Origin: a bacterium
GTDB taxonomy: Bacteria > Zhuqueibacterota > QNDG01 > JAFGCO01
Assembly (NCBI GenBank): GCA_016932575.1
Contig: JAFGCO010000067.1
Span: 62,001-126,000, forward strand
Length of the DNA stretch: 64,000 bases
Reading direction: 5' to 3'
The notes under the pieces were generated by a model. It saw only the letters and a program-made list of their open reading frames with translations, was not told the DNA's origin and made no database searches. Both the position numbers and the translations under genes were made by a program. This document shows, piece by piece, positions 57,511 through 61,464 of the stretch (position 1 is the stretch's first letter; each line of letters opens with the position of its first letter).

Positions 57511-57636
57511 ACCAAGCCCGTATCGTTTGATAATTTTTTTAAGAATAAATAGAGACTGAGCAGAATGATAAATTATAATTTATCATTGTTTGTTCTTTTT
57601 TAGGATTCTGTGGGCCTAAATACTAAGGAAAACATC

Positions 57637-59013
57637 ATGTCAAAACAACACCGCCTTATCAATCGTCTGGACGCACTCTATGAATTTGACCGGGAGCCGG
57701 TAACCCAGAACAAGTTACAGGGATTCGGTAACTTTTTGGGTTTGTATGCGGGTGAACATGTGGCCGGCACCGAATTTGTTATTGGACCGCTCTTCGTGGC
57801 CCATGGCGTGTCCGCCACCGATCTTTTTCTGGGGTTGATCGTCGGCAACATTCTGGCCGTGCTTTCCTGGGCATTTTACTGTGCGCCTATTGCTGTCAAG
57901 ACGAGATTGACTCTCTACTGGCAGCTCAGAAAAATCTGCGGTCCCTACATTAATTTTGTCTACAGCATCGTGAATGCCGTCATGTTCTGCTTTCTGGCCG
58001 GTGCCATGATCGCCGTTTCTGCCACGGCTGTGGGATTGCCGTTCCACATGCCAATGCCTACTCTCCAGGATATGCTTCCGACCAGCATAAGCTGGGTATT
58101 GGTGGTTTTCGCTGTGGGCGCAATTGTCACAATTCTGGCTATTTACGGTTTTGAAAAGATTTCTCATTTTGCCAAAGTCTGTGCCCCCTGGATGTTTCTG
58201 GTCTTTGTGGCCTGTGGTGTCGCTGTACTGCCCAACCTGGGCTGCCACTCGTTTGGAGATTTCTGGCGTGTAGCCAATGAAAAAATTTGGACAGGCGTGC
58301 CTATGGCCGGGCAGTCCAAATTCACGTTTTGGCATGTCATGTTTTTTGCCTGGTTCTGCAATATGGCCATGCATATCGGACTCGCGGACCTGTCGATTCT
58401 TCGATATGCGAAAAAATGGACTTACGGATTCGCAAGCGCCGCAGGGATGTTTCTTGGACACTTCATCGCATGGATTGCCTCGGGCATTCTATGCGCTGCG
58501 GCTGCGGGCAGTGTGGCTCCCGGCCCCATTGCCTATCTCGGCGCAGGAGTGGCCGGCGTGATTTGTGTTGTGATTGCCGGCTGGACCACGGCCAATCCCA
58601 CATTATATCGGGCAGGTCTGGCGTTACAGGTAGTGACTCCCAACTGGAAACGCTGGCGGGTAACTCTGATTGCCGGTCTTATCACCACAATAGCCGCATG
58701 CTTTCCGGCTCTGGTAATGAAACTGCTGGAATTTGTAGCCATCTACGGTCTTGTGCTTATGCCCATGGGCGTCGTGATATTTATTGATTTTCTTATTCTT
58801 CCGAAATTGAATTTAAAAAGCAATTATGCGGAGGCATTTCAAAAACCGGTCAATCTCGCTGCTGGCCTGGCCTGGTTGATTACATTGTCGATTTGTCTGT
58901 GGCTCAATCTGGTTTTGGGCATTGAGGTTTTCTTTTTAGGCATAATAGGAATCGTGCTGACATTTCTTCTGTATCTCTCAGGCAGTTGGATTATGCAAAA
59001 ACACACCGCATAG
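57637..59013 (+). CDS. NCS1-like permease (purine/cytosine permease superfamily)
   Basis: 458 residues from the ATG at 57637, with AAGGA seven bases upstream. About twelve spans. N-terminal NFLGLYAGEHVAGTEFVIGPLFV and GLIVGNILAVLSWAF are those of nucleobase:cation symporter-1-like proteins; WFCNMAMHIGLADLSILRYAK and AGWTTANPTLYRAGLAL follow. The superfamily moves nucleobases, allantoin or hydantoins with Na+ or H+. The location after rhaA suggests a sugar-related substrate in this branch, which is inference. Confidence 0.8.
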   Translation: MSKQHRLINRLDALYEFDREPVTQNKLQGFGNFLGLYAGEHVAGTEFVIGPLFVAHGVSATDLFLGLIVGNILAVLSWAFYCAPIAVKTRLTLYWQLRKICGPYINFVYSIVNAVMFCFLAGAMIAVSATAVGLPFHMPMPTLQDMLPTSISWVLVVFAVGAIVTILAIYGFEKISHFAKVCAPWMFLVFVACGVAVLPNLGCHSFGDFWRVANEKIWTGVPMAGQSKFTFWHVMFFAWFCNMAMHIGLADLSILRYAKKWTYGFASAAGMFLGHFIAWIASGILCAAAAGSVAPGPIAYLGAGVAGVICVVIAGWTTANPTLYRAGLALQVVTPNWKRWRVTLIAGLITTIAACFPALVMKLLEFVAIYGLVLMPMGVVIFIDFLILPKLNLKSNYAEAFQKPVNLAAGLAWLITLSICLWLNLVLGIEVFFLGIIGIVLTFLLYLSGSWIMQKHTA

Positions 59014-60510: not shown

Positions 60511-60554
60511 TTAGAGGGCCTTTGTTCTTAAAGTCAGGAATGAAGGCCCTCTAA
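60511..60554. terminator. 12-bp perfect inverted repeat after the barrel gene
   Basis: TTAGAGGGCCTT, 20-base loop, AAGGCCCTCTAA, starting 29 bases after the stop codon. No T-run follows. Confidence 0.5.
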
Positions 60555-60617: not shown

Positions 60618-60654
60618 ATCATCGGACCTCCGGATCAACCGGAGGTCCGATGAT
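60618..60654. terminator. 16-bp perfect hairpin followed by T-run
   Basis: ATCATCGGACCTCCGG, five-base loop, perfect complement, then ATTATCTCTTTTT. Likely the main terminator of the block that ends with the barrel gene. From 60670 to 60951 no gene or site was recognised. Confidence 0.7.
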
Positions 60655-60951: not shown

Positions 60952-61464
60952 ATGCATATGAAAATAGGCTTCGGACTCTATCATCATCAATTAACGGATG
61001 AAAATTTTCAATTTGCCAGACAATGCGGGGCGACACATCTTGTTGTCCATCTGGTCGACTATTTTCATGGTCAAGATGTACAGGACAACCAACCTGTGGG
61101 CGGAAACCATGGATGGGGAATCGCGGGACATTCGTCGAAACTCTGGGAAACCGATTCTCTGATTGCCCTTAAAAAAAGAATTGCGCACCATGATCTTGAA
61201 TTGTATGCCATTGAGAATTTTGATCCGTCCCATTGGTATGATGTAATATTGGCAGGTCCCAAAAGAGAAGAACAACTCGAAAAAATTATAGACAAGGGCG
61301 ACATCGACCTGATTCGAATCCTCCGTATATTAAAAAATCACCGGTTTACAGGCGTACTCATACCGGATCACGCGCCATTAATGAGTTGTACGGCGCCATG
61401 GCATGCCGGAATGGCCTATACGATGGGGTATTTGAAAGCCGTTCTGAAAGAACTTGAATCATGA
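60952..61464 (+). pseudogene. mannonate dehydratase (UxuA) with internal in-frame deletion
   Basis: 170 residues, while UxuA proteins have about 350-390. Residues 3-110 match the N-terminus (MKIGFGLYHHQLTDENF, GATHLVVHLVDYF, AIENFDPSHWYDVIL, GPKREEQLE). Residues about 114-170 match the C-terminus (DKGDIDLIRILRILK, GVLIPDHAPLM, APWHAGMAYTMGYLKA). The whole middle with metal-binding residues is missing, with the frame kept across the junction near 61282-61295. UxuA removes water from D-mannonate to give 2-keto-3-deoxygluconate; this version cannot do so in the known way. No clear ribosome binding site. Confidence 0.75.

Follow-up and report, generated by a model that had tools for sequence, protein, structure and literature searches.

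An internally deleted mannonate dehydratase-like gene in a bacterial genome, probably a young pseudogene

The locus and its surroundings

The gene considered here lies in a stretch of 64,000 nucleotides, hereafter called the window, and is an open reading frame (ORF) of 170 aa on the forward strand at 60952-61464, which starts with ATG and contains neither internal stops nor a frameshift of its own. On its contig of 315 kb the same ORF occupies positions 122952-123461, far from both contig ends. The assembly is probably a binned metagenome of 4.41 Mb in 72 contigs, 94.5% complete and 2.69% contaminated. The features discussed in the following sections are all on the forward strand:

60618..60654, + strand, terminator-like hairpin 3' of the preceding gene, in the flank upstream of the remnant; 16-nt arms, 100%
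60952..61464, + strand, internally deleted UxuA-like gene; 170-aa ORF, stop included; score with Pfam UxuA 22 bits, cut-off 23.7
60952..61278, + strand, remnant of the N-terminus (residues 1-109) with barrel strands 1-3 and a portion of helix 3; tblastn places residues 3-112 in relatives, strand positions taken from the modelled structure of L003, an intact relative
61279..61287, + strand, deletion junction at codons 110-112 (E-K-I), over which homology to the N side and to the C side overlaps, with 185 residues missing; tblastn and pairwise alignment
61288..61461, + strand, remnant of the C-terminus (residues 113-170) with strand 8 between helices 7 and 8; tblastn places residues 110-170 in relatives, secondary structure from the L003 model
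61366..61371, + strand, Asp139-His140, of which Asp139 is the one presumed metal ligand to survive and His140 a conserved neighbour; pairs with L003 D323-H324 (invariant in the alignment of relatives) and with the D-H of 3BAN

Upstream of the ORF, a 285-aa ORF is found after a gap of 469 bases; besides the hairpin listed above, this gap contains a second strong inverted repeat (60511-60554, 17-nt arms, 88%), and its six-frame tblastn comparison with the set of loci matches only L001, which is this very locus. Downstream, a phosphoglycerate mutase gene follows after 68 bases and is in turn followed by a class I fructose-bisphosphate aldolase gene; between the ORF and the phosphoglycerate mutase gene, the regulatory scan found no terminator-like site on the ORF strand. 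The same scan gave 3 promoter-like and 2 terminator-like sites, numbers similar to the averages of 2.6 and 1.2 obtained after shuffling. Three neighbours, L-rhamnose isomerase, phosphoglycerate mutase and fructose-bisphosphate aldolase, pass equivalog models and cover them nearly in full. Adjoining L-rhamnose isomerase, a 467-aa membrane protein (57610-59013 of the window) is transporter-like by eye and, scanned from the codon at 57637 on, matches nothing in Pfam or NCBIfam at E<=0.001. No Rfam families or tRNA genes were found in the window.

The two ends and the deletion junction

In tblastn searches, residues 3-112 of the ORF correspond to the start and residues 110-170 to the end of one family of about 355 aa, in order and orientation; a chimera of two genes was rejected as needless, since one and the same set of relatives is matched by the two ends in order. 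Pairwise alignment over both flanks gives 185 missing residues (555 bp) with respect to 64 of the 79 full-length relatives, with a range of 183-188, inside the 180-200 residues that an earlier note on this DNA had estimated; that note's description of 110 N-terminal and about 57 C-terminal residues joined without frameshift is correct to within one or two residues.

E110 is identical to the residue of the N side in 70/79 relatives and to that of the C side in 79/79. C-side identity before E110 is practically nil, with the exception of K104 (76/79), which is taken for a chance match, and N-side identity after I112 is practically nil as well. Since the homology of the two flanks overlaps only over E110-K111-I112, the breakpoint repeat is at most about 9 bases, a length that would fit illegitimate recombination and is far below the k-mer that an assembler could collapse. 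Third-position GC is 0.369 in the N part and 0.492 in the C part, calculated over 111 and 59 codons only.

The missing middle in the assembly

With the intact relative L003 as a query against the organism's own assembly, only the two ends are matched; neither the middle of UxuA nor a second UxuA is found at E<=10, whereas in genomes from elsewhere in the phylum the same query does detect UxuA proteins, at 29-45% identity. Elsewhere in the window the missing middle has only weak matches (best E 0.99). The middle is therefore present in intact homologues and missing both from the ORF and from its own genome, as is to be expected of a pseudogene.

The main rival to a young pseudogene is an artefact of assembly or of strain mixture, in which the organism would possess the full gene and the assembly would have misjoined its ends or taken the deleted allele of a minority strain. 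The ends do resemble those of a working gene, and the number of contigs together with the contamination makes a strain mixture possible. However, a repeat collapse, the refuting case named in the earlier note, needs a match at the junction at least as long as the k-mer, and the two sides overlap over about three codons, which makes a collapse unlikely and leaves a chimeric join as the possible form of the error. Moreover, the middle is absent from the assembly although a misjoin often leaves it on a separate contig (very short contigs may have been dropped), and the nearly complete coverage of the equivalog models by the three neighbours also speaks against an artefact. On balance, an artefact is considered unlikely.

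The parent family

The UxuA identity proposed in the earlier note holds at the level of the Pfam family, as L003 scores 182 bits with UxuA (PF03786) against a cut-off of 23.7, and fails with the curated NCBIfam models, for which L003 reaches 146.7 bits against 191 (NF003027) and 113.6 against 199.55 (TIGR00695). L002, another member of the subfamily of about 355 aa, likewise lies below both NCBIfam cut-offs. The ORF itself falls short of the Pfam cut-off, has 12.5 bits with NF003027 and does not match TIGR00695 at E<=1, so that it belongs to none of the three by score.

L003 is similar both in sequence and in fold to the mannonate dehydratases of Streptococcus suis (3BAN), Enterococcus faecalis (1TZ9) and E. 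coli (4EAC): it matches 3BAN by sequence at E=2.9e-38, and the three structures occupy the top ranks of its Foldseek search. Unlike L003, the 170-aa ORF reaches the solved mannonate dehydratases only at E=0.17. L003 and L002, the two intact relatives tested, belong to a divergent UxuA-like subfamily, and 'mannonate dehydratase-like' is the safe name because L003 does not attain the curated NCBIfam cut-offs. Members of about 350-380 aa, such as L002, L003 and L017, occur in Verrucomicrobiota, Bacteroidota, Spirochaetota, Planctomycetota and others; the ends of the ORF align with them at an identity of at most 62% over 166 columns, while the ORF lacks 185 of their residues, among them all but one of the four presumed metal ligands, together with strands 4-7. 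A separate model, and a substrate test, may be warranted for the subfamily of about 355 aa.

Consequences of the deletion for the product

In the model of L003 (pLDDT 90.3) the barrel strands, which were chosen by the author among the listed strands, are 2-8, 27-31, 81-85, 124-127, 209-212, 247-252, 277-281, and 319-321. The part missing from the ORF corresponds to L003 residues ~110-295 and contains strands 4-7; the ORF thus lacks a complete eight-stranded TIM barrel.

The metal ligands of the S. suis mannonate dehydratase, which we take to be His199, Cys237, His266, and Asp310, fit the chain numbers of 3BAN once a fixed offset of 20, determined by a hand count, is applied. Alignment with 3BAN places three of them on H213, C252, and H281 of L003, all of which are invariant in 30 relatives and fall in the gap; the fourth putative ligand, the equivalent of D323, is kept in the ORF as Asp139, followed by His140. 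The assertion that the metal ligands are gone is consequently right for three of the four presumed residues and wrong for the fourth. Because strands 4-7 and three presumed ligands have been lost, the product should not catalyse mannonate dehydration; that it functions as a mannonate dehydratase is very unlikely, and annotation of the ORF as a working UxuA should be avoided.

Distribution among relatives

The genome_contigs search gave 367 pattern-matching stretches, 297 of which encode a relative, and the best 80 of these 297 were kept; a full-length open frame is present in 79 of the 80, with lengths of 350-381 aa when the starts are chosen by the author. No other short in-frame UxuA form was found among these best 80 of 297 genome loci. 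Records from plasmids number 20, of which 17 cover most of the query as two pieces over ~1.05-1.07 kb and are of full length, while the remaining 3 match one end only and are uninformative on length. A search of viral_contigs found no relative of the ORF and no copy of the junction 24-mer; an origin from a phage or a plasmid was rejected in view of the lack of a relative in viral_contigs and of the full length of all 17 well-covered plasmid copies.

With the ORF as a query, a match was obtained in 1 of 59 genomes, namely its own; these 59 include 11 of the same order and none of the same genus or family. The search for further 170-residue forms proposed in the earlier note thus returned none from the best 80 genome loci, the 20 plasmid records and the 59 genomes. 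With L003 as a query, 12 of 82 genomes of the phylum were matched, own genome included, and none of the other 11 contains a relative of close kind. In the tree built from the ends, an open set of 8 rows (97/89) contains the ORF alongside Spirochaetota, Pseudomonadota, and a single row from Verrucomicrobiota; the end branch of the ORF measures 0.55 compared to a median of 0.16. A transferred origin of the gene appears likely, because no close kin was found in its own phylum.

Two other loci deserve mention. In an Akkermansiaceae MAG, a second broken UxuA-like gene (L059:5001-5803), the single one of the 80 loci that is not of full length, lacks ~90 residues' worth between its N and C parts; as in the ORF, the deletion is internal and both ends are recognisable, but it lies at another place and the two parts are in different frames. 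L008 was considered as a second short form and rejected, its ORF being of full length (360 aa); it had looked short because its tblastn row, with query residues 3-164 in 465 bases, is an alignment forced across the gap.

Age of the deletion

The ends of the ORF are fresh. Near-invariant columns were defined as those at least 95% conserved in the 79 intact relatives, L059 being left out, and covered by the ORF, which keeps 60 of these 61 columns, the single change being Leu to Ile at residue 99; the 79 intact relatives, each compared with the others, break 0.75 such columns on average and 5 at most. In simulated neutral drift, the probability of at most one change at the 61 columns is 0.61 at 1% substitutions per site, 0.40 at 1.5%, 0.078 at 3%, and 0.005 at 5%; therefore, if the ORF is unconstrained, the deletion should be younger than roughly 3-5% neutral divergence. 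The very recent deletion with well-kept ends that had been proposed from the sequence is supported by these residues, which include ones dependent on the missing half. Selection on the remnant could also yield the kept columns; a new role is not expected to preserve Asp139, His140 and other residues of the former active site plus all the rest.

A possible retained mini-protein

The same conservation bears on a second rival, according to which the fused ends would be retained as a (beta-alpha)4 half-barrel, made up of strands 8-1-2-3, with a new role such as binding or the formation of a homodimer. A half-barrel is imaginable because strands 8, 1, 2, and 3 adjoin in a barrel, so that the removal of strands 4-7 leaves four strands contiguous round it. 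The AlphaFold2 model of the 170-aa ORF has a moderate confidence (pLDDT 76.6, pTM 0.72) and contains strands 4-9, 29-33, and 83-88 with their helices, in line with this reading; however, it was built from an alignment of intact relatives and for this reason favours the contacts of the parent and imposes its pairings, strand 8 is hardly formed, being shrunk to two residues, and the comparison with the PDB by Foldseek gave no match at E<=0.001. As a prediction, the model neither supports nor excludes a stable remnant protein.

Passages of two reports (PMC8250049, PMC3741200) describe half-barrels of other TIM barrels that can fold and reassemble. The fragments treated in these passages were obtained by engineering or by human splicing and likewise consist of four neighbouring beta-alpha units; they are studied fragments, whereas the half-barrel of the ORF is a prediction only. 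A second example is missing among the best 80 of the 297 relatives and the 17 well-covered plasmid copies, and the retention of all the residues that served the lost active site fits a short time better than a new constraint. The retained mini-protein with a new role, which the earlier note offered as its other alternative, finds no positive support in these results and is regarded as improbable. Less probable still is a fresh natural (beta-alpha)4 half-barrel that would be stable and expressed as a 170-aa protein, might dimerise to a pseudo-barrel and would have or gain a new role; if true, a stable, used half-barrel of this kind would offer nature's own test of the idea that TIM barrels originated from (beta-alpha)4 halves.

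Proposed course of events

The best explanation, to which we assign a probability of about three in four, is a young pseudogene derived from one in-frame internal deletion in a single-copy UxuA-like gene. The ancestor would have been a UxuA-like mannonate dehydratase gene, present in one copy and encoding a xylose-isomerase-like TIM barrel; it may have undergone one internal deletion of ~555 bp through illegitimate recombination at breakpoints with at most ~9 bases in common. The lost length would be a multiple of three by chance, leaving both ends to be read as one ORF; in-frame joining needs no selection, since it is expected one time in three. Deprived of three metal ligands out of four along with strands 4-7, the product would have no catalytic activity and probably no present function, and the young pseudogene would have had little time so far to drift.

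Some observations count against the pseudogene reading. The ORF is open, without a stop or frameshift of its own, and could still be translated; the spacing of 68 bases to the phosphoglycerate mutase gene contains no terminator-like site on the ORF strand; and the predicted mini-protein has the moderate AlphaFold2 confidence given above. In addition, the nearest identity is 62% and no close relative was found that dates the deletion or shows the intact ancestral allele. A pseudogene would be an ordinary case, and in itself the broken gene matters little. Internally deleted pseudogenes are known from bacteria, and the nearest example in this data set is L059.

The pathway in the same genome

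The genome that harbours the broken gene still encodes UxaC and KDPG aldolase, and the broken gene suggests a recent loss of a mannonate dehydratase-like step in this lineage. No protein with Mannitol_dh_C, the class to which E. coli UxuB/UxaB belong, was found in this genome, a search that would overlook reductases from other families. Directly 3' of UxaC, the same genome contains an ORF that is sulfatase-like by eye (L084:2-1435).
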